Shown here: piece by piece, positions 173 to 22,100 of the stretch
Layout of the letters: each line of letters opens with the position of its first letter
How positions within the stretch are numbered: position 1 is the stretch's first letter
Assembly: GCA_031292555.1 (NCBI GenBank)
Contig: JARLGV010000135.1
Coordinates: 1 to 40,284 of the forward strand
From: Fimbriimonas sp.
GTDB taxonomy: Bacteria; Armatimonadota; Fimbriimonadia; Fimbriimonadales; Fimbriimonadaceae
Length of the DNA stretch: 40,284 nucleotides
Direction of reading: 5' to 3'
Notes under the pieces: model-generated
What the model saw: the letters and a program-made list of their open reading frames with translations, nothing else
Told to the model about the DNA's origin: nothing
The model's database searches: none
Made by a program: the position numbers and the translations under genes

Positions 173-2338
173 ATGGTCGAGGCGAGGTCGCTAGCGCAGG
201 TCAACGGTCCGGTTCACCGAAAGTGGCCGTACTGTCGTAAACTCGCCTCGGAGGTTTGTCGATTGTCAGGGCGATTGGAAGACCGGATCAGGGCTGAGCG
301 TGGCCGTCAGTTTGTCGGGCGTGCCGAAGAGATCGATTTGTTCACCTCGGTGATCGGCAGCCGACCGATGCCGCACGTGGTGTTGGCAGTGTACGGACCG
401 GGCGGCGTCGGCAAAACGACGTTGCTTCGGCAGTTCGAGTCGATCTGTCGTGCTAAGGGTGTCTCGTCATGTACGCTGGACGGTCGCTACTTGCAGCCGA
501 ATCCGGACCTGTTTGTGGATGCTCTCTGTCGCGCAACCGGGCAAAGCGGACAAGCCGAGGCGATGGCCGCATTGGCAGCGGAGGGGCGTGGCGTTCTTTT
601 CGTCGATACCTATGAAGCGATCGAGCCCTTGGATGGATGGCTTCGGGAGACGTTCATCCCACAGCTTCCGGAGAATGTGCTCGTCGTGCTCTTGGGAAGA
701 AAGCGGCCTTCGGTGGGCTGGAGGTCGGACGTTTGGCAGAGTCTTTGCCGTGCGGCGCCCTTACGGAACTTGAGCGCGGTGGAGTCTCGCTCCTACCTCT
801 CCGCGCAGACCGTTCCGCCCTCGGTGCATGACCAGATCGTCCACATGACGCACGGCTTTCCCCTCGCACTATCGTTGGTGGCTGAGAACTACGCTCAGAC
901 GGGCGCCGTCGGTTTGGGCCCCGACCCGTCGCTGGACATCGTTTCGGCACTTCTCGACCGTTTCGTGGAAAACGTGGAGGAGCCGGTTCAACGGGACCTC
1001 CTCGAGATCTGTTCGCTCGTGCGGATGACGACCGAAGCTCTCATCGCCGACGTTCTGCGGTCGTCTAGAACTCCAGAACTCTTTGCCTGGCTGAAGTCGC
1101 TGTCCTTCATGGAGGTCACGCCCTTTGGTTTGATGCCTCACGATCTCGCCCGTGAGGCAATCGCAACTGACCTTCGATGGCGCAATGCAGATCGTTATTC
1201 TGAATTCCACCATCGAGTGCGGGCCTATTATGCTGATCGGCTGGAGCGAGCGACTGGTCCCGCACAACAGCTCATCCTATTCGACTACATCTATCTTCAC
1301 CGGGACAATCCGGTGATGGAGCCGTTCTTTCGGTGGCACTCCCACGACGAGGCTTTCGCCGACTCCGCCCGCATCGAGGATCTATCCGAAATCGTGCGGA
1401 TTGTCGAAAAGCACGAGGGATCGGAGTCGGCGGGGTGGGCACGGTACTGGTTTGAACGGCAACCCGAGGGGTTTCTCGTCATGCGCGATTCGTTCAACCC
1501 GCATCGCCTAAAGGGCCTCCTCGCCTCCCTGAATCTAACTCCTATCGAAGCTGTCAGTCGAGATCCGGCCACGTCGGCTGCGTTGAGGCACCTGGAGGCC
1601 ACTTCCGCGTTGACAAACGGGGAGCGAGCAACTTACTTCCGGTTTTGGATGGCCGATGACGACTACCAAAACGTCTCCTCGATCCAAAGCACGCTCTTCG
1701 TCTCGATCGTCCAGCACTACCTGACGACGCAGAATCTGGCGATGACTTACTTGCCCTGCGCAGATGCGGGGTTCTGGGCGCCGATGTTCCACTATGCCAT
1801 GCATGAGCTGGTCGAACCGGCCGCGTTCGACTTGGATGGCAGACGCTATGGTGTCTATGGCTTCGATTGGCGGGCACTCCCGCCCAAGCCTTGGCTCGAG
1901 CGTCTGAGCGAACAGGAGGTCCCGATCAAAGCGTCGGCGGAGCGTCCAAAGGCAGCGGCGGACCTCGTCGTTCTGTCGCGCGAGGGTTTCGAGGAGAGCG
2001 TGTCGGAGGCGTTGAAGAGCTACACTAACCCACCGAAACTGGCCCTGAATCCCTTGTTGAAATCGAGACTGATCGTCGAACGCGTCTCCCCCGACGCTGA
2101 TACCAAGGAACGCATCCTGCGACTGCGCGAACTCCTCAAGGAAGCCGGTGAATCACTTAGGGAGAGCTCTAAGGAGGAAAAGCTCTATTTGGCACTCGAT
2201 ACCTGCTATTTTCGGCCGATGAGATCACAGGAGGTTGCGGCAGAGAAGGTCGATGTGTCTATAGCGACGTTTAGGCGTCACCTGAAGGCGGGCACGGCTA
2301 GGGTGACCGAATTGCTGTGGCAGCAGGAAACCGGCTAG
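173..2338 (+). CDS. STAND/AAA-type P-loop ATPase with C-terminal HTH-like segment
   Basis: This is a 721-residue cytoplasmic P-loop NTPase, probably a regulatory or signalling switch of the STAND type. The N-terminal part has FVGR around residue 47, the usual lead-in to such ATPase domains. A Walker A GPGGVGKT lies at 75-82 and a Walker B-like GVLFVDTYE at about 140-148, with a possible sensor region (LLGRK) further on. The middle is mostly helical without a clear repeat. The last 50 residues contain SQEVAAEKVDVSIATFRRHL, which looks like a helix-turn-helix of the kind ending some regulatory ATPases. Its effector and target are unknown. The ATG at 173 has only a weak upstream purine stretch (GGGCAG). 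It is followed closely by a lipoprotein gene on the same strand. Confidence 0.75.
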   Translation: MVEARSLAQVNGPVHRKWPYCRKLASEVCRLSGRLEDRIRAERGRQFVGRAEEIDLFTSVIGSRPMPHVVLAVYGPGGVGKTTLLRQFESICRAKGVSSCTLDGRYLQPNPDLFVDALCRATGQSGQAEAMAALAAEGRGVLFVDTYEAIEPLDGWLRETFIPQLPENVLVVLLGRKRPSVGWRSDVWQSLCRAAPLRNLSAVESRSYLSAQTVPPSVHDQIVHMTHGFPLALSLVAENYAQTGAVGLGPDPSLDIVSALLDRFVENVEEPVQRDLLEICSLVRMTTEALIADVLRSSRTPELFAWLKSLSFMEVTPFGLMPHDLAREAIATDLRWRNADRYSEFHHRVRAYYADRLERATGPAQQLILFDYIYLHRDNPVMEPFFRWHSHDEAFADSARIEDLSEIVRIVEKHEGSESAGWARYWFERQPEGFLVMRDSFNPHRLKGLLASLNLTPIEAVSRDPATSAALRHLEATSALTNGERATYFRFWMADDDYQNVSSIQSTLFVSIVQHYLTTQNLAMTYLPCADAGFWAPMFHYAMHELVEPAAFDLDGRRYGVYGFDWRALPPKPWLERLSEQEVPIKASAERPKAAADLVVLSREGFEESVSEALKSYTNPPKLALNPLLKSRLIVERVSPDADTKERILRLRELLKEAGESLRESSKEEKLYLALDTCYFRPMRSQEVAAEKVDVSIATFRRHLKAGTARVTELLWQQETG

Positions 2339-3157: not shown

Positions 3158-5860
3158 ATGACGATCTCGCTCTTGGTAGTGGCAACGGCGCTGGGGACCA
3201 TGGCGTGCGTCCACCATCGAGTGGACCGTGCAGGAGAACTGGCTTTGCTCCCTGGACGACATGAGGGAGATGCCGTCGACATTGGCCCATGGTGCTACGA
3301 GTTCCGGGCCGACCGGAAGATCCAGCCGCAGCCGGAGGCATCGTTCATACCTCGGCGTCTCGATCGCTTGGAGGGCGTCTATCGCGCTGCGTCGGTCTCC
3401 GTCCCAAAGGACGATCTGAAGAGCATCGCTTATGACATGCCGGACATGCTCAAGACGTTTCCACCCAAACCCAAGGGGCAACTGAAAGCCGGGTTGTTGT
3501 GGACGGGTGGTTTGGTCGACTACCGCGTCGAGTTGCACTGGCCGGGCGATCCCCCGCCCGTCGACTCGATCGAAGTCCGGTCCTATCCGACTTCCTTTGG
3601 TTGGTTTGGGTGGACCGTCGACAAGGTTCTTACTGATCCGGAGATGTCTGCCGATCGACGGACCTGGATCTACCGCAGCGATCCATCGGAAAAGATGGAC
3701 TCGTCCTACAACAACCGAGTCCCTGCGGCAGCCGAGATGGTCGCCGTGTTCGGACCGGAGAATCCGTCCTCGATCCCCTCTCTACGAATTGTCGGTCCTG
3801 ACTTGGGCAAATGGAAGCGCTCGGATATTGAAATCGAGTGGGGATATGGCGCCAGCGCTACTGTTGGCGAATTCGCAGCCAGCCTGGAGCCGTATGTCGC
3901 CCAGGTCAAAGCCATCAAGCCGCTGGACGGCGACTCAGGTACGACGGTAACCGGGCTCACTTTAAGATCATCGCCGTCCATATCTGATCGCCGGGGAGTG
4001 GCGGTTTCCCTCCTGTATGCGCCAGATATCCGACCAGGACTCGACAGCCGCTTGACCGTGCGATCGAAGATGGGGGAGAGCTTCACCTTTAGCCTCAAAG
4101 ACCTCGACCGTGGGCCGATGTTGATTCCGAGGCTAGGGATCTTCGTAGTTCGCGCAGGATCTGGGATGACGGCCCGCCAGTTTGCAAATGGGTTGTCGGC
4201 TGCCAAGGGTAAAGGGCTGCGAGAAATGGTCCGCGACCATCCAGAGGCTTCGTCCTGGGAGCAAGTCATGCATGAGGTCCGGCTTTGGACGTGCCCGAAG
4301 GGAACCACGCTCAAGGTCATGCCGGATCTCCCCATTCCGCCGATGGAGGTGAAGGTCCCCGATCCCGGTTGGGAGGGCGCTTGGAGAGCCGTTACGAATC
4401 AGCTAAGAGGCAAGAACATGTGGGGTTCACTTGCCTTTGAGGTTGGGCGCGTTGCCCACGAGATGGACATGATCGGTCTCCACCAAGAGGCGGATCGCAT
4501 TTACGAGCACTTCCTATCTGCGCCGGGAGCCAAATCAGATGGGGACTATTCAGACGGCAAGGGTGCCCTTGAGTGGGCTACTGCCATCAAGCACGACATG
4601 GGCTATAGCCACGATGGGACCCATGCCTCGACTGGAAGGCTCCTCTTCGCGATGGCCGAGCGGTATTTCCTCACCGGCGACCGGGCCTGGTTCGTACGAA
4701 ACCGTACGCGTCTACAAGCCGCCGCCGACTGGATCGTGCGGCAGCGCACCGGCTATTTGGCCAATCTGCCCAACCGCAAAGACCTCTTCGTCGCCGGACT
4801 CATGCCTCCCCAGATGCTCGGCGATTATGCGATGCCAGCGTGCGACTGGCACTGGTACTACGTGGACAACGCCCTCTCTTTGCAGGGGCTTCAGCGGTTC
4901 GCGGATGCATTATCTGAGGTCGATCCGGCGGAGGGAAAGCGGTACAAACGAGAGGCGACGAGCTTTCGCCGGGACCTGCGGCGGGCCATCGAACGCGAAG
5001 CTGCCCTCGCTCCCGTTAGGCTCGGCCAGGATGGGGCCTATCACAGCTATCTGCCAAGAATGGCCTACTCGCGTGGTTTGACCGGTCCCGAAATCGGGGC
5101 GCCACAGTTTCCCGATTGCGACAAGTTCATGGGGCCGCTCCCTCTATCAGAGCCATTCGGCGCAATCGCGGCCACCGATCCCAGGATGGTGGAGACGATC
5201 GAAGACATGGCGGAGATGGGAACGTCTCACGAGGCGATTCGAAAGGACGAAGCCTCCAGGGCGGAGAAGGGCGCACCGGTCGACGATGCCTGGTTCTGGA
5301 ATTGCTTCGTGATTTTGCCGAAGGCATCGCACAACGCGAATATCTACTTGCTCCAGGACGACGTGCCGAGCTTCTTGCGCTTCTGGATGAATGCCTACGC
5401 GTCGGTCGTCGGGGCTGACGGGAAGCTTTGGGAGCATTGGCACCTTGGCAACTTCGACGACTGTGCCGCTCCCGACAACGGCACGGCTGGCTGGTTCATG
5501 GAGAACTATCGGGACCTCCTCGTCATGGAAAAGGGACCTGATTTGTGCCTTGCCTTTGCCACTCCCCGCACGTGGCTGGAACAAGGTAAAGAGATTGCGG
5601 TCCGCGGAGCGCCGACGTATTTCGGCGAACTCGCCTATTCGATCAAGTCGGACGTGCTGAACGGCTCGATCGCCGTTAGGATTGCCGTGCCGTCTAGAGA
5701 TCCGGCTAAAAGCGTCTACCTGCGGCTTCGGCACCCCAAGTCCCTGCCGATCAAATCGGTTACTGTCAACGGCAAGGCATGGCACGACTTCGATCACGGG
5801 AAGGAGACGATACGGCTTCGGGGTGTGCATGGAGAAGTCACCGTAGTGGCTCGATTCTAG
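3158..5860 (+). CDS. Exported six-hairpin glycosidase-like protein
   Basis: A 900-residue protein with an N-terminal hydrophobic export signal (ISLLVVATALGTMAC); the Cys at position 17 could make it a lipoprotein, though the lipobox is poor. The first 400 residues look like beta-sandwich material. The central part, about 400-740, is helical with patterns seen in (alpha/alpha)6 six-hairpin glycosidases: HDMGYSHDGTHAS, a segment around TGDRAWFVRNR, CDWHWYYVDNALSLQGLQRF, and GTAGWFMENYRDLLV. The C-terminal 120 residues form a beta-rich cap with SVTVNGKAWHDFD, a common ending of such enzymes. I infer a polysaccharide-active enzyme in the periplasm or on the outer surface. The catalytic acid cannot be assigned by eye and no CAZy family is claimed. 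A TAACCT sequence ends 8 bases before the ATG and is only a weak promoter candidate. Confidence 0.65.
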   Translation: MTISLLVVATALGTMACVHHRVDRAGELALLPGRHEGDAVDIGPWCYEFRADRKIQPQPEASFIPRRLDRLEGVYRAASVSVPKDDLKSIAYDMPDMLKTFPPKPKGQLKAGLLWTGGLVDYRVELHWPGDPPPVDSIEVRSYPTSFGWFGWTVDKVLTDPEMSADRRTWIYRSDPSEKMDSSYNNRVPAAAEMVAVFGPENPSSIPSLRIVGPDLGKWKRSDIEIEWGYGASATVGEFAASLEPYVAQVKAIKPLDGDSGTTVTGLTLRSSPSISDRRGVAVSLLYAPDIRPGLDSRLTVRSKMGESFTFSLKDLDRGPMLIPRLGIFVVRAGSGMTARQFANGLSAAKGKGLREMVRDHPEASSWEQVMHEVRLWTCPKGTTLKVMPDLPIPPMEVKVPDPGWEGAWRAVTNQLRGKNMWGSLAFEVGRVAHEMDMIGLHQEADRIYEHFLSAPGAKSDGDYSDGKGALEWATAIKHDMGYSHDGTHASTGRLLFAMAERYFLTGDRAWFVRNRTRLQAAADWIVRQRTGYLANLPNRKDLFVAGLMPPQMLGDYAMPACDWHWYYVDNALSLQGLQRFADALSEVDPAEGKRYKREATSFRRDLRRAIEREAALAPVRLGQDGAYHSYLPRMAYSRGLTGPEIGAPQFPDCDKFMGPLPLSEPFGAIAATDPRMVETIEDMAEMGTSHEAIRKDEASRAEKGAPVDDAWFWNCFVILPKASHNANIYLLQDDVPSFLRFWMNAYASVVGADGKLWEHWHLGNFDDCAAPDNGTAGWFMENYRDLLVMEKGPDLCLAFATPRTWLEQGKEIAVRGAPTYFGELAYSIKSDVLNGSIAVRIAVPSRDPAKSVYLRLRHPKSLPIKSVTVNGKAWHDFDHGKETIRLRGVHGEVTVVARF

Positions 5861-5916
5861 TTCATACGAGTCGGATTGCTGGTTTTCTGGGATTTGGGTG
5901 AACTTTTAGTCGATCA

Positions 5917-5938
5917 AACCATATCTAAAGATATGTTT
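5917..5938. promoter_or_regulatory. Operator-like palindrome at the start of the PadR-nitroreductase gene
   Basis: CATATCT-AA-AGATATG (5920-5935) is a perfect 7-bp dyad. The flanks add three more pairs per side with one mismatch (arms 5917-5927 and 5928-5938). PadR-family repressors bind palindromes of this size and commonly repress their own gene. The ATG at 5933 lies inside the right arm. I infer autoregulation by the downstream PadR domain. Confidence 0.6.
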
Positions 5939-7144
5939 TACGATATAGATCGAGGATGCTCACGTCATGGCCGCCATCATCACGAGGGTCGTGGCGTGTT
6001 CGGAGGGCGTCATCGCCATGAACGGCATGGTCTTCATTCCGGCCGTAAGCTGTCGTCTGAGAACCTCCAATTGGTCATCCTGGCCCTTCTGGAGAAAGGC
6101 GGTTCGCACGGGTACGAACTCATTAAGTCCTTGGAGGACCTTTCCGACGGCTTCTACGTTCCCAGCCCGGGAATGATCTACCCTGCGCTTACGTACCTCG
6201 AGGAACTGGGGTATGCCGAGGTCGAGGTGGACGGTTCGAAAAAGCGCTACCGGTTGACTTCACCGGGATTGCAGCATCTCAACGAAAATCGAACGCAGAC
6301 CGAACAGGTGCTCCGTGACCTCGAACAAATTGGTTCGAGGATGGCGGATGCCAGGCGCGCTCTCGAAGGAGAGGAGCAGGAAGACGGCGAAGGGCCCGAT
6401 GTGGACGGACTTAGAGGGATTCGGAACGAGTTGAGAGGCATTCTGCGAGGTCGCCGACCCGATCGTCCCGAAGAGTCCGATCGGATTGCCGGCATTTTGA
6501 GGAGTGCGATCTCCGCTATTCGTGAAGGACGGCCTGCCCGATTCGAGTCCGACGTGGACGTGCTCTTTCACGCAATCCAGAATCGTCGAAGCATGGGCCT
6601 TTCCAAGCTACGAAGCGATCCCGTCGATCGGAACCTCATCGAGCGAATGCTCGAATCGGCGAATTGGGCGCCAAGCAACGAAGACACCGAGCCTTGGCGG
6701 TTCGCCGTCTTTTCCGGCGAGGGTCGAAAGGTCTTGGCTGACTTGTTTGCCGATGCTGTTCAGTCGAAATCCGGCGGTGACGATGCAGCTCTTGCCCGGG
6801 AAGGCGCTACCAAGAGAGCTTACGCCTCACCGGTCTGGATCGCCATTGGCATGACGCCTAAGCTAAAGGAGGACGGATCCCTCTTGATGACCGAGGAAGA
6901 GGAGCTAATGGCCGTCGCTTGCGCAGTACAGAACCTGCATTTGATGGCATCGGCGATGGGACTTGCCGGGATGTGGCACTCCAAAGGTTTGTCAGTGAAT
7001 AAAGCGGTTGCAGAGGGCCTCGGCTGGTCGGCGCCTTCGAGGTTGGTGGGCTTCTTCATGTGCGGCTGGCCATCAACGGCGTGGCCCGCCGGTGAGCGGG
7101 GACCTTTGGCGGAAAAGGTGCGTTGGATCGACTCCTGCCGGTAG
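5933..7144 (+). CDS. PadR-family (YqjI-like) repressor fused to a nitroreductase domain
   Basis: The frame is about 403 residues from ATG 5933. After a short lead it has a His-rich arm (HGRHHHEG, GRHRHERHGLH). A PadR winged helix follows, with NLQLVILALLEKGGSHGYEL, PSPGMIYPALTYLEELGY and KKRYRLTSPG. A charged linker of about 95 residues leads to a nitroreductase domain with QNRRSMGLSKL, WAPSNEDTEPWRFAVF and GLAGMWHSKG, which match the FMN-contact region and late core of the family. The arm plus PadR half resembles E. coli YqjI, a nickel-responsive repressor. The nitroreductase half should bind FMN and use NAD(P)H. The frame opens at TTG 5876, but that start would place the operator inside coding sequence, so I prefer 5933; a GTG near 5993 is another option. 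The fusion may couple metal sensing to a flavin enzyme; this is inference. Confidence 0.8.
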   Translation: MFYDIDRGCSRHGRHHHEGRGVFGGRHRHERHGLHSGRKLSSENLQLVILALLEKGGSHGYELIKSLEDLSDGFYVPSPGMIYPALTYLEELGYAEVEVDGSKKRYRLTSPGLQHLNENRTQTEQVLRDLEQIGSRMADARRALEGEEQEDGEGPDVDGLRGIRNELRGILRGRRPDRPEESDRIAGILRSAISAIREGRPARFESDVDVLFHAIQNRRSMGLSKLRSDPVDRNLIERMLESANWAPSNEDTEPWRFAVFSGEGRKVLADLFADAVQSKSGGDDAALAREGATKRAYASPVWIAIGMTPKLKEDGSLLMTEEEELMAVACAVQNLHLMASAMGLAGMWHSKGLSVNKAVAEGLGWSAPSRLVGFFMCGWPSTAWPAGERGPLAEKVRWIDSCR

Positions 7145-12577: not shown

Positions 12578-12961
12578 ATGAATGCGAGCTACAACGTATA
12601 CGTCATTCCAACCCACCCGGGAGTCGAGCGACCCCTCATAAGTATCCAACCGACTCGGCCCCGGGCTTTTTTAAACGACCTGAGTTCATACATGCAGATC
12701 AACAAATTGGAAGCCTCAGTTCTGCATGCCGGAGAACGGCAATCGGATTCATTTCTGCACGAGCCCACTGCAGCGATCCGTTATTTGTTGGTCCTGCACG
12801 GAGTGGCGCGTTCCGTCGGGCCCAACTTACCTCCCGAGATCTTCAACCAGCGTGCGGGACATGTCACTTCGTTCACCGACGTCTATGCGTTTCTCGCGTT
12901 GCATGCGTCGGAATCGCTTCCTGGTTCGCAAGGACCGATCACGGTCGCGATCATTCTGTAG
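12578..12961 (+). CDS. Hypothetical protein, tail-to-tail overlap with lpxC
   Basis: A 127-residue frame of balanced composition with no recognised domain, signal peptide or membrane segment. The sequence looks alpha/beta, with a hydrophobic strand IRYLLVLHGVARSV in the middle and ITVAIIL at the end. It begins at ATG 12578 without a clear Shine-Dalgarno site and ends 11 bases inside the 3' end of lpxC on the other strand. The 98 bases before it hold no clear promoter or terminator. It is probably real because a frame of this length with ordinary composition covers space otherwise empty, but no function can be given. Confidence 0.5.
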   Translation: MNASYNVYVIPTHPGVERPLISIQPTRPRAFLNDLSSYMQINKLEASVLHAGERQSDSFLHEPTAAIRYLLVLHGVARSVGPNLPPEIFNQRAGHVTSFTDVYAFLALHASESLPGSQGPITVAIIL

Positions 12962-13757
12962 GCTGAATCGCCTGGCGCAGCATGGCGGCGGCCTTCACGT
13001 TGGCGGTGTGTCCGCTCTTTGCGGACACTACGTTCAGTGCCCGGATGGGGACTCCGGCGAGGTAAAGGTCGCCGATGAGGTCCAAGAGTTTGTGCCTTGC
13101 CGGTTCATCGGCAAAACGTGCTGGATTCTCGTAATCGGATTCGCCGAGGATGAGAGCTGAATCCTTGTCCAGACCCTTTCCAAGTCCGTATTTCATGATC
13201 ATCGGGAGTTCTTCAACAAAAGCAAACGTCCGTGCCGGCGCGACATGCTCCTTGTAGCCCTCGACTATTTCGGTCAACTCGAATCCTTGACTACCGGGCC
13301 ACCGATCTCCGGTTAGGAAGTCGTAGCGCCAGTGACCGGCGCCTCTTGCAATTGCGATTTCGTAATGGTCGTCCTGAATGAAAAGGCGGCGGTAGAGGTC
13401 CGGAACCGTTTGCCCGCCGATGTCTATGAGCCCGGCGCAAGTCAGTGCTTCTACGAAGAGCTTGGCGCTGCCGTCCAAGCCTGGGAGTTCCGGGGACGTG
13501 AGTTCGACTTCGGCATCGGTGATCTCGAGACCGGCAAAGGCGCTCATCAGATGCTCGATGGTTCCGATTCCACCGAGGCGAGTGCATCGAGTCGTGTCGG
13601 TTACGTTCTCAGGGGCCGCGACCACCCGATCGCCGCCCAATCGAAATGCGATGCCTTGGTCAGATGGATGGATGGTCACCTCGACAGGTGTGCCCGTATG
13701 CAGGCCAATGCCGTCGAGGTGGGCCGGACTCGCCAAAGTTCGACGAGTCACTTGCAT
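12951..13757 (-). CDS. lpxC: UDP-3-O-acyl-N-acetylglucosamine deacetylase
   Basis: LpxC removes the acetyl group from UDP-3-O-acyl-GlcNAc, the committed step of lipid A synthesis in the cytoplasm. At 268 residues it is somewhat shorter than the E. coli enzyme (305). GIGLHTG near residue 16 is the family's opening motif. The zinc site is complete: His69 (in TIEHLMSAF), His222 and Asp226 (in RHKLLDLIGDL). Glu68 is the likely general base and His250 (in SGHTAN) completes the active site. It is not fused to FabZ, as happens in some phyla. Its start overlaps the end of lpxD by 10 bases, so it is probably translationally coupled. It is the last gene of the outer-membrane cluster. Confidence 0.95.
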   Translation of the reverse strand: MQVTRRTLASPAHLDGIGLHTGTPVEVTIHPSDQGIAFRLGGDRVVAAPENVTDTTRCTRLGGIGTIEHLMSAFAGLEITDAEVELTSPELPGLDGSAKLFVEALTCAGLIDIGGQTVPDLYRRLFIQDDHYEIAIARGAGHWRYDFLTGDRWPGSQGFELTEIVEGYKEHVAPARTFAFVEELPMIMKYGLGKGLDKDSALILGESDYENPARFADEPARHKLLDLIGDLYLAGVPIRALNVVSAKSGHTANVKAAAMLRQAIQPTE

Positions 13758-14821
13758 GGTTGCTCCGAATCGCTCGCCTTCTGCTCGAGTTTCGCCAGGC
13801 GGTTCTCCAAGTCACGAATCGTCCGGTGCATTTCTGGAAGCCTCTGCATGACCGCGATGATTCGCTTTGCCATCCCCATCGGTCTGGCCGGCGTTCCCCA
13901 GTAAGGTCCGGGTTCGTCGATATCGTTGGTGACGCCAGTTCTGCCGGCCAGGATCACATTGTCTCCGACCTTTACGTGATCAGTGATTGCTACGTGTCCG
14001 CCAATGTCATTTCTTCGGCCGGCCTCCGAACTTCCGCCCATCGCGGTTTGGCCGGCAATCACGGTGTGTTCGCCGATTTTGCAGTTATGGCCTATCTGTA
14101 CAAGGTTGTCCAGCTTGACTCCCTGCCCAAGCACCGTGCTCCCTGCCGTGGCTCGGTCGACCGCCGTCAGCGCGCCTATTTCGACGTCTGAGCCGATTTC
14201 AACGGTGCCGACTTGGGGAACCTTTACACGGAAGGCCCGATCGGGGCCGTTCCAAACAAAGCCGAATCCATCTGCTCCGACAATCGCTCCGGCATGGATG
14301 ATGCTTCGATCACCGACAGTGACATCCTGATAGAGGACTGCATGCGGATTGATGGTTACGTTCTTGCCGATACTGCACCCTTCCCCAACGTAGGCGAAGG
14401 AATAGATCTTGGTTCCATCGCCTATCGTTGCGTGTCGCTCCACCACAGCATACGGCCCGACCATAGCAGTCGGCGAAATGATGGCATCAGGGCTGATCAC
14501 GGCGGTGGGATGGATACCTGGCGCAAGAGGCAGAGGTCGCTGAAACATGGCGAGCACGCGACCGAAGGCGGCACGAGGGTGGTCGGTTTGGATCGTGGCG
14601 ACGCCCGGTGACGTCGTTCCGCGTGCAACCAACACGGCGCCGACATCGGCCCTAATTGCACGGGAGAGGTACTCCGGCGATTCGGCGAATGTGATGCCCG
14701 CAGGGTCGCTAATGCCCGCTGGAACCGGGCGAACGATGAGTCGGTCGGCAGGGCCGTCCAACGTGCCGTTCAATAACTGCGCTAGTTGTCCTAGGGTCCA
14801 AGCCCTTTTTGTTGTCTCCAT
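13748..14821 (-). CDS. lpxD: UDP-3-O-acylglucosamine N-acyltransferase
   Basis: LpxD adds the N-linked acyl chain to the LpxC product in lipid A synthesis. The 357-residue sequence has the usual N-terminal uridine-binding domain (about 1-100), then a left-handed beta-helix of hexapeptide repeats (about 100-310; for example IGDGTKIYSFAYVGEGCSIG). The catalytic His is His245 in VQIGHNCKIGEH. VGADGFGFVW is the conserved LpxD segment before it. A C-terminal helical tail (about 320-357) includes MHRTIRDLENRLAKLEQKA, likely part of the trimeric coiled coil. It overlaps the upstream lipoprotein gene by 31 bases and lpxC by 10 bases, so the three are tightly co-transcribed. Confidence 0.95.
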   Translation of the reverse strand: METTKRAWTLGQLAQLLNGTLDGPADRLIVRPVPAGISDPAGITFAESPEYLSRAIRADVGAVLVARGTTSPGVATIQTDHPRAAFGRVLAMFQRPLPLAPGIHPTAVISPDAIISPTAMVGPYAVVERHATIGDGTKIYSFAYVGEGCSIGKNVTINPHAVLYQDVTVGDRSIIHAGAIVGADGFGFVWNGPDRAFRVKVPQVGTVEIGSDVEIGALTAVDRATAGSTVLGQGVKLDNLVQIGHNCKIGEHTVIAGQTAMGGSSEAGRRNDIGGHVAITDHVKVGDNVILAGRTGVTNDIDEPGPYWGTPARPMGMAKRIIAVMQRLPEMHRTIRDLENRLAKLEQKASDSEQPCK

Positions 14822-15804
14822 AGCTGGAACTCTTGCGTGGCATCTTTGACGCCTCTAGACGATTGGACCGCTCGGTACCGATTGAGGGCTAGCCAGATGC
14901 GCAATTCACCCTCCAGCATTTTTCGGTGGTCGGCGGTTCCCTCGACTAATCCTTCAGAAGGTACCACTGGCGAGGGGTCCAAAGGGGAGTCGGTGGAAAT
15001 CCGGACAGAGTGAGATGGAGATCCAGGAAATGCCACCGGCGTTGGATCGGCCAGTCGGAACTCAAGTTGAGAATCCACGTTTCTGATCTGTGCCCGTGCT
15101 TCGCGCTCGGCCCTCCGGTCCAACTCGTTCGCGAATGCCTCGATTCGCCGTTGCAGATCTGCTTGCGAAGCGCTAGATTTGTCGAACATGACGGCAAAAA
15201 TCTTGGCACAATCGGCCGAGAACCGATCGTCGATGGTCTTAAGATCCGTCCGCAGCCTGTCTGCCGTCTCAAGCCTTTGACGCTGAATCGGATTCGGCGC
15301 GCGTGCAGGTGGTTGAGATGTCGGGTTGGGATCTGGGAACCCCGCCAAAAGCGTGAGCTTGGCAAAAACCGGGGCACGTTCGGTTGCCCACGCTTCGAAA
15401 CGTACACGTATTCGATCATTTGCCTCTCGAAAAGCGACTTGGTCCAAATTCCCGAGCGCCAATGCTTGCTCCATCCGGAATCGGTTTGCTTCGCTGCCGT
15501 AATACTGCCGTAGCCGCCTTTGAAGCGTATCCACCGCCTTTGACTGCTCCTGTTGGAACATCTCTCGCACATTCAGGCGAGGCGTGTTGGAGGGGTCTCG
15601 GATCGCGATGGCCCCACTGCCCGGCACTTGCTCTATGACGTTGCCGAGGGGCCTTGGCACGGTCGGAAGTGGAACGCCTACCGGAGCAACCCGCGTACCT
15701 TGAGCGAGCAGGCGATCCAGGTTGACGTACACCGCCGTTGTGGTCGGCTTTTGACATCCGCCGGCAATCGCGACGGCGAACAGAACGATTCTAGCTCTTC
15801 GCAT
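14791..15804 (-). CDS. OmpH-like helical lipoprotein of the lpx cluster
   Basis: A 337-residue predicted lipoprotein: a basic start (MRRAR), a hydrophobic stretch (IVLFAVAIA) and a lipobox-like AGGC with Cys17. The mature protein begins with VYVNLDRLLAQG, which resembles the first strand of Skp/OmpH (compare GTVDIVRLLDQ in the neighbour). It then has long charged helices likely to form coiled coil (about residues 80-165 and 190-270) separated by a Pro-rich break (PNPTSQPPARAPNP). I infer a periplasmic, membrane-tethered, chaperone-like or scaffold protein; I do not recognise a named family. It overlaps the upstream skp paralogue by 14 bases and lpxD by 31 bases. Confidence 0.6.
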   Translation of the reverse strand: MRRARIVLFAVAIAGGCQKPTTTAVYVNLDRLLAQGTRVAPVGVPLPTVPRPLGNVIEQVPGSGAIAIRDPSNTPRLNVREMFQQEQSKAVDTLQRRLRQYYGSEANRFRMEQALALGNLDQVAFREANDRIRVRFEAWATERAPVFAKLTLLAGFPDPNPTSQPPARAPNPIQRQRLETADRLRTDLKTIDDRFSADCAKIFAVMFDKSSASQADLQRRIEAFANELDRRAEREARAQIRNVDSQLEFRLADPTPVAFPGSPSHSVRISTDSPLDPSPVVPSEGLVEGTADHRKMLEGELRIWLALNRYRAVQSSRGVKDATQEFQLWRQQKGLGP

Positions 15805-16438
15805 TCATCGCGGACAGCGCGGCGTCGGTGACATCGTTCGCCCCATAGGGAGCGGTCGTCTCGTCGAAGACAACGGTGTAGCCTTGGGTCTTGGCCACGT
15901 CGTTGATCGCCTTGCGGGCCTTCGTAAGGCCCACGAGTTTGCGCTTGTCGGCAAAGTCGGCCATATCGTTGTTGAATTCCTTGAACCAGCGCTGGACGGC
16001 ATCGTTCATCTGCTGGCTACGTCGAGCGTACTCTTCGACGAGGGTTCGTTCTTCGGGCGTCATATTCGGCTTTGTTGCCAGTTCAGTGGATCGCTTGCTC
16101 GTAGCTACGACGTCGGCTTTGATTCGATCGAGCTCTGCTTTGTCTTCGGTGGTGGGACTTTCCTTAAGACTTAACTCCTTGATGCGCTGCGCTTGCTCGG
16201 CCGTCAAGATCCGGTACGTGTCGACGAACTCAAGCAGCCCCTCACGTGTCGTCTTCATCTTTTTGAAGAGGTCCTGGCCCTCTTTGCCGTAATCACTTTG
16301 ATCCAGCAGCCGAACGATATCGACGGTTCCGATCTTGATGTCGTTGGTCTGGAAGCCGCCTGCCAAGGCAACGCCAATTAGGACGGCAGCCAGCACCCAT
16401 CCAAACTGAAGAAAGCGCGTCATACGCATCGAGTCCAT
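15791..16438 (-). CDS. Periplasmic chaperone Skp/OmpH family, copy 2
   Basis: A 215-residue OmpH/Skp-type protein. A signal peptide (FGWVLAAVLIGVALAGG) precedes the family's beta strand IGTVDIVRLLDQSDYGKEG. Long charged helices follow, forming the 'tentacle' coiled coil. The C-terminal GYTVVFDETTAPYGANDVTDAAL corresponds to the closing strand and helix of Skp. It should hold unfolded outer-membrane proteins in the periplasm for BamA. It is a clear paralogue of the gene just upstream (shared GTVD, SDY.K, and an ending of S.MNAK). The start could also be an internal Met four codons downstream. It is separated from copy 1 by 135 bases with strong inverted repeats, and overlaps the lipoprotein gene after it. 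Confidence 0.8.
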   Translation of the reverse strand: MDSMRMTRFLQFGWVLAAVLIGVALAGGFQTNDIKIGTVDIVRLLDQSDYGKEGQDLFKKMKTTREGLLEFVDTYRILTAEQAQRIKELSLKESPTTEDKAELDRIKADVVATSKRSTELATKPNMTPEERTLVEEYARRSQQMNDAVQRWFKEFNNDMADFADKRKLVGLTKARKAINDVAKTQGYTVVFDETTAPYGANDVTDAALSAMNAKS

Positions 16439-16482
16439 CTCCCAATCATCTGCCTGCTATTTCGCATTATCGAATCCGGATT

Positions 16483-16548
16483 GGCGCGTGCCAAAAAATG
16501 ACGCGCCGCCGGAACGCCTTGTCTTGTCGACGACTTGGCCCCGGCGGC
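16483..16548. repeat. Two abutting inverted repeats between the skp paralogues
   Basis: GGCGCGT (16483-16489) pairs perfectly with ACGCGCC (16501-16507) over an 11-base loop. GCCGCCGG (16505-16512) pairs perfectly with CCGGCGGC (16541-16548) over a 28-base loop. The second repeat starts in the last bases of the first, so the two could be alternative structures. There is no U-tract on either strand, so an attenuator or RNA-processing or stability element is more likely than a plain intrinsic terminator. Confidence 0.5.
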
Positions 16549-16573
16549 ACGAATCGAGCAATGAGTCGACGAC

Positions 16574-17203
16574 CTACTTCTTGGCGTTCATACCCTTTAG
16601 TGAATCGGCTGTCAGGTCGTTCGAACAATACGGAGCGATCTCCTGGGCAAACACGATCGAATATCCCTGATCGCGAGCAACCTGCTGGATCACCTGGCGA
16701 ACGCGAACCAGCGCATCGGCATTCATCTTCTCTTGCTGCTGGGTCAACTCGTCGTTGAACTCGGTTCTCCACTTTTCCAGTCGTTGGCCAGTGGCGTCCT
16801 TTCGTTTCGTGTAGTCCTCAATCTGCGTCAATTCGGCGGCAGTCGGCTTCTCCTTGGTTTGTAGCGCCTGGGCCTTCTGCTCGTCCGAGCCCGCATCGGT
16901 CTTTATTCGAGTGATGTCGTCTTTGTCGGCGGCGGTCGGCTTATCTTTCGTGCTAAGGATTCGAAGCTTGTCCGCATCTTCCGGCTTCATGTTCCGGTGC
17001 GTCTGGACGAATGTCACGACGTCGCGCCGCGCCGCGACCTGAGCTTGCAGGCCCTCGTTCTGAGTCTTCGCGTAGTCGCTGTCTTTGAACACCTTGATCA
17101 CGTCTACGGTGCCCGTTTTGTCGCCGGGGGCCCGGAAGCCCATTCCGATGACGGCGCCCGCCAAGGCTGCCGCTACCATCCATCCCAATCTCTCTGTTTT
17201 CAT
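16574..17203 (-). CDS. Periplasmic chaperone Skp/OmpH family, copy 1
   Basis: A 209-residue OmpH/Skp-like periplasmic chaperone. A signal peptide (LGWMVAAALAGAVIGMG) is followed by GTVDVIKVFKDSDYAKTQ, the first strand and turn of the family. The middle is charged and helical with two KPTAA-type segments. The end, GYSIVFAQEIAPYCSNDLT, is the closing strand and helix. Its likely job is to escort outer-membrane proteins to BamA, whose gene lies 13 bases upstream. The Shine-Dalgarno AAGGGA overlaps the bamA stop codon, which suggests coupled translation. The pair of copies may form homo- or heterotrimers; this is untested. Confidence 0.85.
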   Translation of the reverse strand: MKTERLGWMVAAALAGAVIGMGFRAPGDKTGTVDVIKVFKDSDYAKTQNEGLQAQVAARRDVVTFVQTHRNMKPEDADKLRILSTKDKPTAADKDDITRIKTDAGSDEQKAQALQTKEKPTAAELTQIEDYTKRKDATGQRLEKWRTEFNDELTQQQEKMNADALVRVRQVIQQVARDQGYSIVFAQEIAPYCSNDLTADSLKGMNAKK

Positions 17204-17216
17204 ACTTTATTGTCCC

Positions 17217-19016
17217 TTAGAAGCTGTTTCCTATTCGGAAGTCGGGCTGAGTTTTGCCATTCTCGTTGAAGCCCAGGTCTACGCAGATCTGGCCGAACGG
17301 AGTCTTGAAGCTTAGCCCCGGTCCATAGCCAAGGTGCATTTGGAATGTTCTCGACTGTGTGTAATCGTTAACCGTTCCGTAACCGCCCCAGGCGCCGCCA
17401 TAGTCGACAAAGAAGATCAAATCGAACGACTTCTGAATCGGGTGCCGGTACTCCGCCGAAAGGAGAATTGAATCTTTACCCCAAAATCGATCTGGGTCGT
17501 ATCCGCGCAACGAATCGGGACCGCCTGCGAAGAACTGATCGAAGTAGGGAACCTTTCCATTGATGAACCCATACTTCGCTCGAACGGCGATCACCCGGCG
17601 GGCAGCTTCGACATCGAGATCGCGCGGCTTCTGTCCGGGTGACCAGTACTTGCGGTATTCCATGGTCGTGCGAGTGAAGAAGTTGCTGCCGAGGATGTCG
17701 TTATTGGCGGTGGCGCCGCCAACACGGGTGATATCGGAGTATCCCGGCTCGAAAATGACGCGGGAGAAGTCGCCTCGAGAGGTGTCGATGATGGTGTCGC
17801 GGCGGTCACGTGTCGCAGAAAAGCTCAGCATGCCCATGTCGCCGTCCTGCTGCACAAAGCTGTTCAGGGGCGTGGCGCCGGTGTTCGCCGTCGTGACGTT
17901 CTCGACTCGTCCCGAAAATCCGAGGCTCACCTGATCCGTGATCGGTCGCTGCCAGCCCAGCGAGAGTCCACTGTGGCGCTCGTAGTACTGCGTCGAACTG
18001 TTGATCGGGCTGCTTGTGCCGAAGAACGACGTTCCGAATCGATAGACGAGGTGGCTATAGATTGATGTCTGGAAAACCGTGTCCTTGGCATCGTAGAACG
18101 GGTTCGTATAGCTGAGGTCGACGCTTGGCCCTCCGCCCGAGATCGCCTGGGTCAGGTTGAGCGCGACGCTCTTACCTGTTCCGTACAAGTTGTTCTCTGA
18201 GAGGCGGATCAAGCCTGCGAGCGAGGTGTCGGGATCCATTTGGACGCCGACGTTGAACTGACCGGTTTTGGCCTCTTTGACCTCGGCGATCAGGTTCCGG
18301 TTGACCTTGCCCGGTTCCGGCGAGATGTCTTCGCGCTTCGCTTGAACCGAGTCGAACCAGTTCGTGTTGTGGATGCGCGTAACGTCCTTGGCCCACTTGT
18401 CCTCGTTGTAGACGTCGCCCGCCCGGGTCTTGATCAGGCGGCGCATGACCCAGTCCTTGGTGCGGACGTTGCCTTGGGTCGATACCGTTCCGACCTTCAA
18501 CTCGACGATGACGATGTTAATGGTGCCGGGGGAATCGGTCAACGGTGCGAAATCGTCGATACCGGCGAGCGCATAGTGCTTTTTGTCGTAGGCTGCCGCG
18601 ATAGCGTCGACGCTCGAGTGGCGAGCGTTGAGATTAAAGACATCACCCACTTTCATGGTGAGCGCCTTAAGGATCTCCTCCCTGGTGACAACCGTGTTGC
18701 CGGTAATCTTGAACTCTTTGATGACCGGCCACTCTTGGAGATCGACCGTAACCTGGTACGCGTTGAGATCCGAAGGAGTCGCCTCAACGTCGACTGCGGA
18801 AAAGAATCCCAGGTCTTCCAGGCTCTTCTTGTCGCGGCCAAGGTCATCCTGTACCAACGGCTTGCCGGCCTTCGTCCGCATTGCGGCAAGAATGGCTTCC
18901 TTGGAAACGCGAACGTTGCCACGGATCAAGACGTCTTTCACAATGCTCGCCTGCTGGCCGTACGCAACGGCTGCAACCGTGCAAAGCGCTGCGAAAATGC
19001 ATATCCTTCTAATCAA
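17217..19016 (-). CDS. bamA: Outer-membrane protein assembly factor BamA
   Basis: BamA inserts beta-barrel proteins into the outer membrane. The 599-residue sequence has a signal peptide (ICIFAALCTVAAVAYG), then three POTRA domains (about 24-100, 101-180, 181-270) recognisable by VKDVLIRGNVRVSKEAI, IKEFKITGNTVVTREEIL and VSTQGNVRTKDWVMRRLI. E. coli BamA has five POTRAs and 810 residues, so this is a short form. A barrel of about 330 residues follows. It contains GGPDSLRGYD, equivalent to the (V/L)RGY motif of loop 6 found in all Omp85 proteins, and ends with Phe, as expected of a final barrel strand. It lies between the tamB-like gene and two skp genes, a partnership seen in many diderms. Confidence 0.92.
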   Translation of the reverse strand: MIRRICIFAALCTVAAVAYGQQASIVKDVLIRGNVRVSKEAILAAMRTKAGKPLVQDDLGRDKKSLEDLGFFSAVDVEATPSDLNAYQVTVDLQEWPVIKEFKITGNTVVTREEILKALTMKVGDVFNLNARHSSVDAIAAAYDKKHYALAGIDDFAPLTDSPGTINIVIVELKVGTVSTQGNVRTKDWVMRRLIKTRAGDVYNEDKWAKDVTRIHNTNWFDSVQAKREDISPEPGKVNRNLIAEVKEAKTGQFNVGVQMDPDTSLAGLIRLSENNLYGTGKSVALNLTQAISGGGPSVDLSYTNPFYDAKDTVFQTSIYSHLVYRFGTSFFGTSSPINSSTQYYERHSGLSLGWQRPITDQVSLGFSGRVENVTTANTGATPLNSFVQQDGDMGMLSFSATRDRRDTIIDTSRGDFSRVIFEPGYSDITRVGGATANNDILGSNFFTRTTMEYRKYWSPGQKPRDLDVEAARRVIAVRAKYGFINGKVPYFDQFFAGGPDSLRGYDPDRFWGKDSILLSAEYRHPIQKSFDLIFFVDYGGAWGGYGTVNDYTQSRTFQMHLGYGPGLSFKTPFGQICVDLGFNENGKTQPDFRIGNSF

Positions 19017-19103
19017 ACTTCTCTCCTACCGCCCACGGGCGAGGGGCTTCCGAAGTTGGCCGCCGGTGAACTTTACCCGTCGGGACTACTGAATGCCCTG
19101 AAC

Positions 19104-19136
19104 TTCTTGTTCCCGTATCTGAAGGATCAACAAGAA
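19104..19136 (-). promoter_or_regulatory. Hairpin in the leader between tamB-like and bamA
   Basis: TTCTTGTT (19104-19111) and AACAAGAA (19129-19136) form a perfect 8-bp stem with a 17-base loop in the 179-base gap before bamA. No U-tract follows on the minus strand. The gap is unusually long for this cluster and could hold a second promoter or a regulatory leader. A small GCCC-AC-GGGC dyad lies nearer the bamA start. No gene is seen in the gap. Confidence 0.4.
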
Positions 19137-19195
19137 ATCCGTTTCAACGATTGATTTTGGCATTTACATCTACCATCGAAAGATAGGTCATTCCA

Positions 19196-22100
19196 CTAAA
19201 ACCGAATTCCATAGTCCAGACCGAGCTTCCATGGGAAGTCTTGGTCGGCTCCAAAGAAGAATCGAATCTGCCTCAGTGCTCCTGGCAACCGCCTGGGGCG
19301 GTACACGATTCGGAGGTCGTATCGGGGGACGAGGCCCGGCGGGGGTTCGGAGAGCTGCCGCGATCCAACGACTGAAAAGCCGCTAACCAACTCCTTGCCA
19401 AACGTGACCGACGCCTGGTCGAACATGTTGTATTCCAGGCTCAGATAATCCAAACCGATCCCCTTCGCCACTTGGGCAGTGAGGGGATCAAGCAGGGAAG
19501 GAACGACGAATTGAGCGATTGCGCCCACCGTCTGGGTGCGATTTAGGCCACTTGACAGATCCTGTAGGAAGGCGCCCTGACCGAGTACGGCAAGAATCTG
19601 GTCCTGGGTCAAATCGGGAGGATCGCTGGATGCGGCAAGCTTAATGCCGTTCGGATCGAGAAGATCGCCCTTCATGCCGAGCGTGATGGCGTAACGTTGG
19701 ATTTCCGCTTCGCCGGCCCGAGACGTTGTCGCAGACGTCGTGCCCTCTAGGTCGACCTTTGCGGAGGCCGTTGTGCCAAGACGAGTCGACTGGTAGTCTA
19801 CGTTAACAGTCCCGCCCTGGTCGATTCTGAGTAGGGATGCGGGGAGGCGAATAGTGCCCCGGTCCACGTAGAGCGAGCTGCCAACTCGAGGAAAGCGAAG
19901 ACTTCCTTGGACGAAACCATCGCCAAGAAGATATAGGTTTGCCGTCGACGATTGAAGTCGACATGGATCGGTAAGGCTAAGTTTAAGGTCAAATCTTGGA
20001 TTAATCGCGAAATCATCCGGTGACGAACCCCCGCTCGGAACCCCCTTGAAAATGAAATCGCCAGATGAGATCCGGGTCTGGCCGGTGACAAGCGGAGCGC
20101 GAATCGTTCCACCTACATCGACCTGCGAGGAAACCGTTCCCGAAACGAGGCTGCCTTGAAGTATCTGCTGACGGAAGGGAATGTTGTTGAGTGCGGCATG
20201 CCCCGTTACGGCGCGATCCAATATCGAGTCCAGTCCCGTCTTGCCGAAGTCTTCGACAATTCGGTTCAGATCTCCGACGGGCGTGGACAGAGAAGCTGAA
20301 AGGTCGCCCCCTCGAATCGACTTGGCCCCGGCCTGAACATCGAGTTGGTTGTCGTGGATGGAGACGATCGCCTTGACGTCTCGGAACGAGTCGTCAAGGC
20401 CGTTGAATGCGAGCGCGTCTGCTGTCAAGTGAACCGAGCCGTTCACCTTGATTGCTGAAGAAGACCCGACTGCATCCAACTCACCGCCGAGCGTTCCCGA
20501 GGAACGTTTGGCGTCGATTCCTCCGATCAGTGGCGCGATGTCGTTCAATTTGCTTTCGGAGAACACGATCTTGACTTCGGTCGATCCACCGGTTCCGACC
20601 TCAAACGGATAGTTGAAAGGCGTCGTCGCATCTATCGAACCGCGAACGCCACGATAGAAGAAGTCGCCGGATGCCTGGATCGCCTTGGATACGCCGAGTG
20701 ACGGATCGATGACTATTTTGTCAAAGTTGAAGCGGAGATTCTTGTCTTCATTCGCAGGAGTCTGTGACGTTGCGGGTATAGCGAACACGTCGTTGGCCTT
20801 GAGCGAAGCAACGATTCTCGGGGACCTGGTGGGTCCATCGACCGAGAACCACAAGTGAGCGGTTCCGGTTAGGGAGCTTAGGCGGGGGTCTAGTTCGCCA
20901 AACCCTGAGAGGTCGATCTGGTTGTCTGTGTTGCCGTCGAGGTGTATCTCGCCCTGCTCCTGGAGAGTGCCCTTTAGCTTGAGCTTGATCGGACCGTTCG
21001 AAACCTGGCAATTCGAAATACTCCACCGGTGGCTCTTCAAGTCAAACGCCGCATCGAGGTCTCCGAGCGGTTGAGCGCGGAATGTTATTTTGTCCGCGGT
21101 CACGCGATGCACCTGCACCTCAGGGGCCTCCGTCGTGCCTTCGATCGAGGCCGAGAGGCTGACCTTCGCCTTGAGGTTGGAGAGATCGTCTCGAAGCGAT
21201 TCCGATAGATTCGGCAGGATTGGGACGATCGCAGACACAATGTTTTCTGCCGGAACGTTCAAAACTGTCAATTCGCCAGAAGCGCGTTTCGATTCGACAA
21301 TGTAGGAAAAATCGTCGAGTTCGAGAAACCGGTCGAGATACCCGACCGCAAGACTTCCATGAATGGCTTTGCCATCCGAATTCAATTGGATCGGGCCGTT
21401 TCCAATAGGGGTGTTATTGAAGGAGACGCCCTCCAGTTGACCAGTCGACTGGAGGTGGGAAATCTGGGACCCACGGAAATCTAGATCGGCGGTCGCTGTA
21501 ATCTTTCCGCCAACGACGATCGAGTCGCCGAGCTTTGGCATCAATTGATCTAGGGATAGCCCTTTTGCATCGACTTTAAGTTGACCAGAGCGCTCACCGA
21601 GGTCAATTTCGCCGTTGGCCGCTAGTGTGCCGTCCGCGCCGGCGCACTCCAGGTTGTGGAGATTGACCTTGGTTCCGTCAGATGACAGATCCATTGAAGC
21701 GGAGTCGATCTTGACGCCATGAACGATGAGACTCGATCCGTGAGCCTTTGCCGAAAAAAGCGGTTCCGACAGTGAACCCGTCAATCCGATGTCGGGAGCA
21801 TCGAGTGTGCCCACGACGTCGTCCCCAAGCCAGTCCCCTAACTGGATGCTTTTCGCCGAGAACCGGCCGGCAACGGCTTTGGATTTTAGGTCGAGCGAGG
21901 CGAATCCGGTGACGCTGGCTGTTCCCTTCGCCGATTCGATGTGGTCAAGTTCGAGGCGTCGTCTGTCGACCTTGAAGTTCGAGACCAACGCAGGGATTGT
22001 TTGATCCTGGTAACTCAAATCAAACCCCTCTACTCTACCGGCGCACTTTGGGGTCTTCAGTGTGCCAGTGACGGTGGCTGACAGATTGCTAGTCCCGGAC

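Follow-up and report, generated by a model that had tools for sequence, protein, structure and literature searches.

A YqjI-like PadR regulator fused to an FMN nitroreductase in Fimbriimonas, with a putative operator across its own start codon

Results

The locus and its product

The window (the whole stretch of 40,284 nucleotides analyzed here) derives from the 6.46-Mb genome of a Fimbriimonas sp. (G000) and holds one uninterrupted open frame at positions 5876-7144. The gene within it (5933..7144, plus strand; ATG at 5933, stop at 7142-7144) encodes 403 amino acids, and its domains all follow on the same strand: a Gly/Arg/His-rich N-terminal arm, MFYDIDRGCSRHGRHHHEGRGVFGGRHRHERHGLHSGRK (residues 1-39, 5933..6049, delimited by sequence and alignment), a PadR winged-helix domain (residues 49-117, 6077..6283; PF03551, E 1.5e-14), a YqjI-like C-terminal helical region (residues 118-205, 6284..6547) and an FMN nitroreductase domain (residues 215-379, 6575..7069; PF00881, E 1.7e-20). 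The PadR match reaches 54.2 bits against a curated Pfam cut-off of 27, which places this half in the PadR family, and the nitroreductase match spans the full profile (1-167 of 167) with 74.3 bits, also above its curated cut-off. The sequence-only reading, which had proposed a YqjI-like PadR and a nitroreductase in a single frame, is thus supported by the Pfam domain search. Among structures in the PDB, the N-terminal half is related to the PadR-like regulator 1xma (E 3.3e-7), and the C-terminal half to the nitroreductase-like protein 2i7h (E 1.2e-18) and to YdjA (3bm1, E 7.6e-15).

The start codon was placed by alignment. An earlier assignment to TTG 5876 had to be abandoned and is ruled out, as the 19 residues it would add are absent from the corresponding proteins of another species of the genus (G002) and of a member of another family (G061). 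Both the congener's fusion and the more distant G061 PadR begin with MFYD at an ATG equivalent to position 5933, and this ATG is therefore taken as the start. A possible -10 element, CATATC (5920..5925, plus strand), is suggested by the equivalent TATATC in G061 and TAGTAT in G002; a sigma-70 consensus promoter scan of positions 5800-6000 found nothing, and no Shine-Dalgarno sequence is evident upstream of ATG 5933. The layout points to an mRNA that is likely leaderless or nearly so.

Elsewhere in the window, the minus strand carries an outer-membrane biogenesis cluster (12951-23548) with LpxC, an LpxD/hexapeptide protein, an OmpH-like protein, an Omp85/POTRA (BamA-like) protein and a TamB-like protein. 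Genes at 173-2338 (plus strand) and 25810-28398 (minus strand) each encode a large protein with AAA_16/NB-ARC-like ATPase domains.

A second fusion in the genus

The fusion recurs in G002 (L067:4321-5547), where a protein of 408 amino acids carries both Pfam domains and is 55% identical to the window protein over residues 1-398, in a gene whose neighbours differ from those in the window. The predicted FMN-site motifs RRS, WAPS..TEPWRF and GMWHSKG are kept in both proteins, as judged by alignment. A frameshift or assembly error as the origin of the joint frame is ruled out by the same frame at this level of divergence in the congener, and no frameshift was found in the supposed linker (about 6300-6550). 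This stretch aligns with the PadR proteins of G002, G061 and G086 and with E. coli YqjI, and residues 118-205 are the normal C-terminal helical region of the YqjI type rather than a mere linker.

Only two PadR-nitroreductase fusions, those of G000 and G002, were seen in 291 Armatimonadota genomes, 20 of them from the same genus. A pattern scan of genome contigs for the architecture gave one weak, partial match, and 147 plasmid records match one half of the protein, with none covering 80%. A partial literature search returned no published description of such a fusion. The sequence-only reading had considered that relatives might have two separate genes; most indeed do, yet a second intact fusion exists, and the fusion is therefore best regarded as a derived state. 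A tree of the nitroreductase sequences gave no clear placement of the two fusions relative to each other, and a single fusion event is therefore not proven.

It is very unlikely that an internal translation start yields a separate nitroreductase alongside the fusion. In-frame GTG codons do lie just ahead of the nitroreductase domain, near the starts of the stand-alone homologues, but inspection by eye found no Shine-Dalgarno-like sequence before them, and the inter-domain region is retained in G002.

A putative operator at the gene's own start

The near-perfect dyad noted earlier at the start of the gene is confirmed as AAACCATATCT-AA-AGATATGTTTT (5916..5939; core CATATCTAAAGATATG, 5920-5935), with 11-bp arms and one mismatch, and it covers the corrected ATG 5933. 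A dyad as good arises in 13 of 5000 shuffles of positions 5860-5992. Since comparable dyads are present elsewhere in the window (seven entries), the dyad taken alone is modest evidence, and the strong evidence for an operator comes from conservation. The sequence GATATGTTTTACGATA (5930-5945) is shared without change by G000, G002 and G061 and is the sole exact match in each genome; it holds the start codon and codons 2-4, and its identity has been kept even though other codons could encode MFYD. The equivalent regions read CTATATCTTACGATATGTAGTATCTTAAGATATGTTTTACGATA in G002 and GTATATCTTAAGATATGTTTTACGATA in G061.

The putative operator seems to be longer than first proposed, with GATA-containing units reaching into the coding sequence. 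As read from the sequence, it would comprise ACCATATC-TAAA-GATATGTT-TTAC-GATATAGA (5918..5949), three units that follow one another at about 12 bp and extend into codons 1-6; the 12-bp spacing is found in both the window and G061. The element spans the start codon and, as comparison with G002 and G061 suggests, probably also the -10 element.

G000 (6.46 Mb) and G061 each contain a single perfect copy of ATATCTNNAGATAT; G002 has two perfect TATCTTANGATA sites, both located at its fusion gene. The G000 count covers perfect matches and would pass over degenerate operators at other places in the genome, and one-mismatch sites in G000 are about as frequent as for a reversed-pattern control; both points count against reading the gene's own start as the single target.

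All 16 Armatimonadota YqjI-like loci examined carry GATATATC, GATACATC or TATCN4GATA between -150 and +45 of their own start. Exact GATATATC occurs in this interval in 11 of the 16 (shuffled mean 0.07, maximum 1), GATACATC in two (L079 and L081) and TATCN4GATA in the window, G002 and G061. Exact GATATATC is not present in the window; it is found in the 11 relatives and in E. coli, where the nfeF-nfeR region carries AGATATATCT, a GATATATC-type element, at the same position at the start of nfeR (yqjI).

Relation to YqjI/NfeR and a possible role of metal

With E. coli YqjI as query, the top match in G000 is the fused gene (E 4.3e-23, against 1.3e-6 for the next PadR), with 51% identity over 83 amino acids of the PadR core, which upholds the YqjI-like assignment of the sequence-only reading. 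In G002, G061 and G086 the best match is likewise the fusion gene or the equivalent PadR. The fused protein nevertheless appears to be YqjI-like and not NfeR itself, because its partner is a fused nitroreductase and not a divergent ferric reductase; no gene for a siderophore-interacting ferric reductase was found in the flanking ORFs scanned.

According to PMC7981267, which cites Wang 2011 and 2014, NfeR/YqjI represses its neighbour nfeF, and nickel relieves the repression. By extension, nickel or iron on the His-rich arm could free the operator of the fusion, with the enzyme taking part in metal reduction like NfeF. The nickel response of YqjI/NfeR and the arm itself, with eight His in its first 45 residues, speak for such a sensor. 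The His-rich character of the arm noted earlier stands for the window protein but not for all of its relatives: the counts are eight in the window, seven in G002, eight in G086 and two in G061, where the operator is the same, and the His content seems not to be kept in this closest non-fused relative. The first 45 residues hold a single Cys in the window protein, against seven Cys (and 11 His) in E. coli YqjI, the arms of YqjI-like relatives are Gly/Arg-rich and variable, and the enzyme belongs to a family other than the siderophore-interacting ferric reductases. On balance, metal sensing by the fusion is rather unlikely.

Separate halves and neighbours in other genomes

Homologues of the nitroreductase half, within the family and in other families, are mostly 43-69% identical, stand alone at about 190-230 codons and mostly lack an adjoining PadR gene. 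Neither G000 nor G002 has a further member of this nitroreductase subfamily at E<=1e-3, and the fusion thus takes the place of the stand-alone gene; besides the fusion, G000 encodes five PF00881 proteins.

The closest PadR is that of G061, 48% identical over residues 1-206 and fused to an O-methyltransferase-like domain (PF13578/PF01596). Its nitroreductase gene, whose product is 67% identical to the enzyme half of the fusion, starts 14 bp past the end of the PadR-O-methyltransferase gene. With the latter (L059:2093-4023), this PadR lineage shows two kinds of regulator-enzyme fusion. G086 has a stand-alone YqjI-like PadR, upstream of whose gene GATATATC-like units are arrayed at a spacing of 12 bp; about 0.9 kb from this gene lies a degraded, divergent remnant of a nitroreductase that carries an internal deletion (L065:4300-4490). 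Five of 14 further YqjI-like loci (L073, L079, L080, L082 and L083) consist of a stand-alone PadR gene, with GATATATC or GATACATC at its start, followed directly by a gene for a PF01596 O-methyltransferase (E 1e-38 to 1e-41), a recurrent operon of which we found no description. In two others (L075 and L077, from G081 and G082) the gene directly downstream is ABC transporter-like, as named by eye, and AAAGATATATCTTT lies just upstream of the PadR gene. The YqjI-like regulator thus adjoins small enzymes and has fused with them in two forms. By family, these enzymes may act on quinone/catechol-like or nitro compounds.

Such arrangements make it quite possible, with a likelihood a little short of even, that operon neighbours were simply joined by a deletion and that the halves work without crosstalk, the gain being co-expression only. 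The operon-neighbour arrangement of G061, the fusion of its PadR to an O-methyltransferase and the five loci in which a stand-alone PadR precedes an O-methyltransferase all favour a passive union of this kind, but the halves have been kept as one chain in two species despite divergence to 55% identity. A passive union is compatible with an autorepressed regulator-enzyme, minus any coupling between the halves.

Discussion

The reading that we consider probable is that of an autorepressed YqjI/NfeR-type regulator, with its own promoter and start as the only strong target, fused to a nitroreductase that formerly belonged to its regulon. Outside the fusions, the association of PadR and nitroreductase is seen as adjoining genes in G061 and, with a remnant, as near-neighbours in G086; relatives mostly lack a YqjI-like PadR beside the nitroreductase, which counts against this reading. 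The fused parts are each of known type, and it is the combination that is new.

By analogy with the PadR family, the protein would act as a repressor and bind as a dimer. A PadR dimer would occupy the 12-bp-spaced GATA units over the start codon, and probably over the -10 element too, and so block transcription. An inducing signal would loosen the repressor and allow more of the same mRNA, and hence more enzyme, to be made; the enzyme would then remove the signal compound, be it a quinone, a nitro compound or a flavin/ferric electron acceptor, and the accumulated repressor half would shut the gene again. The inducer and the substrate named here are guesses. In a single chain the enzyme dose equals the repressor dose. 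PadR proteins and nitroreductases are both usually homodimers, and one dimer can therefore serve both halves.

A tighter coupling, the main proposal of the sequence-only reading, in which the nitroreductase half is itself the sensor and its FMN redox state or a bound quinone or nitro compound alters the grip of the PadR half on the operator in the manner of PutA, seems unlikely. The single chain, the conservation of the FMN-site motifs in both fusions and the precedent of PutA and other trigger enzymes (PMC8249747) are consistent with it, but the PadR half retains its own arm and C-terminal helices and may sense by itself, and an AlphaFold2 model built from one sequence alone, with a mean pLDDT of 41.6, is too poor for judging inter-domain contacts. 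Similarly improbable, to the same degree, is a one-gene redox switch in which the state of flavin or substrate would set the DNA affinity of the protein's own PadR domain, with autoregulation through the start-codon operator.

Returning to the autorepressed regulator-enzyme, one switch would set both the enzyme level and the regulator level. The locus offers a compact case of the merging of a repressor with its target enzyme, where separate genes, operon neighbours and a fused chain can be compared within one phylum, and the operator type is kept throughout the separate, neighbouring and fused arrangements.

Comparison with known systems

E. coli YqjI/NfeR shares with the fusion the PadR core, the His-rich arm, the C-terminal helices, a GATATATC-type element at its own start and the control of a redox enzyme. 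In E. coli, however, regulator and enzyme (YqjH/NfeF) are encoded by two divergent genes instead of one chain, the enzyme is a siderophore-interacting ferric reductase instead of a nitroreductase, and the arm is rich in Cys as well, whereas that of the fusion has one. The findings extend the YqjI/NfeR regulator type past ferric reductases to nitroreductases and O-methyltransferases. YdjA and other small FMN nitroreductases (PF00881; PDB 3bm1, 2i7h) have the same complete domain and conserved FMN-site motifs, but stand alone without a regulator domain. The G061 locus resembles the fusion in its PadR half, its operator and the nitroreductase next door, and differs in that its PadR is joined to a methyltransferase and the nitroreductase is a separate gene.

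The fusion is trigger-enzyme-like in that it combines an enzyme and a DNA-binding domain in one chain, as do PutA, BirA and NadR. Both the DNA-binding fold, which in PutA is ribbon-helix-helix, and the enzyme differ from those of the fusion, and the link between catalysis and DNA binding in these proteins would apply here by analogy only. PutA is at once an enzyme, the repressor of its own gene and a single-target regulator (PMC8249747). If DNA binding by the fusion depends on flavin, it would represent a PutA-like trigger enzyme assembled from entirely different parts.
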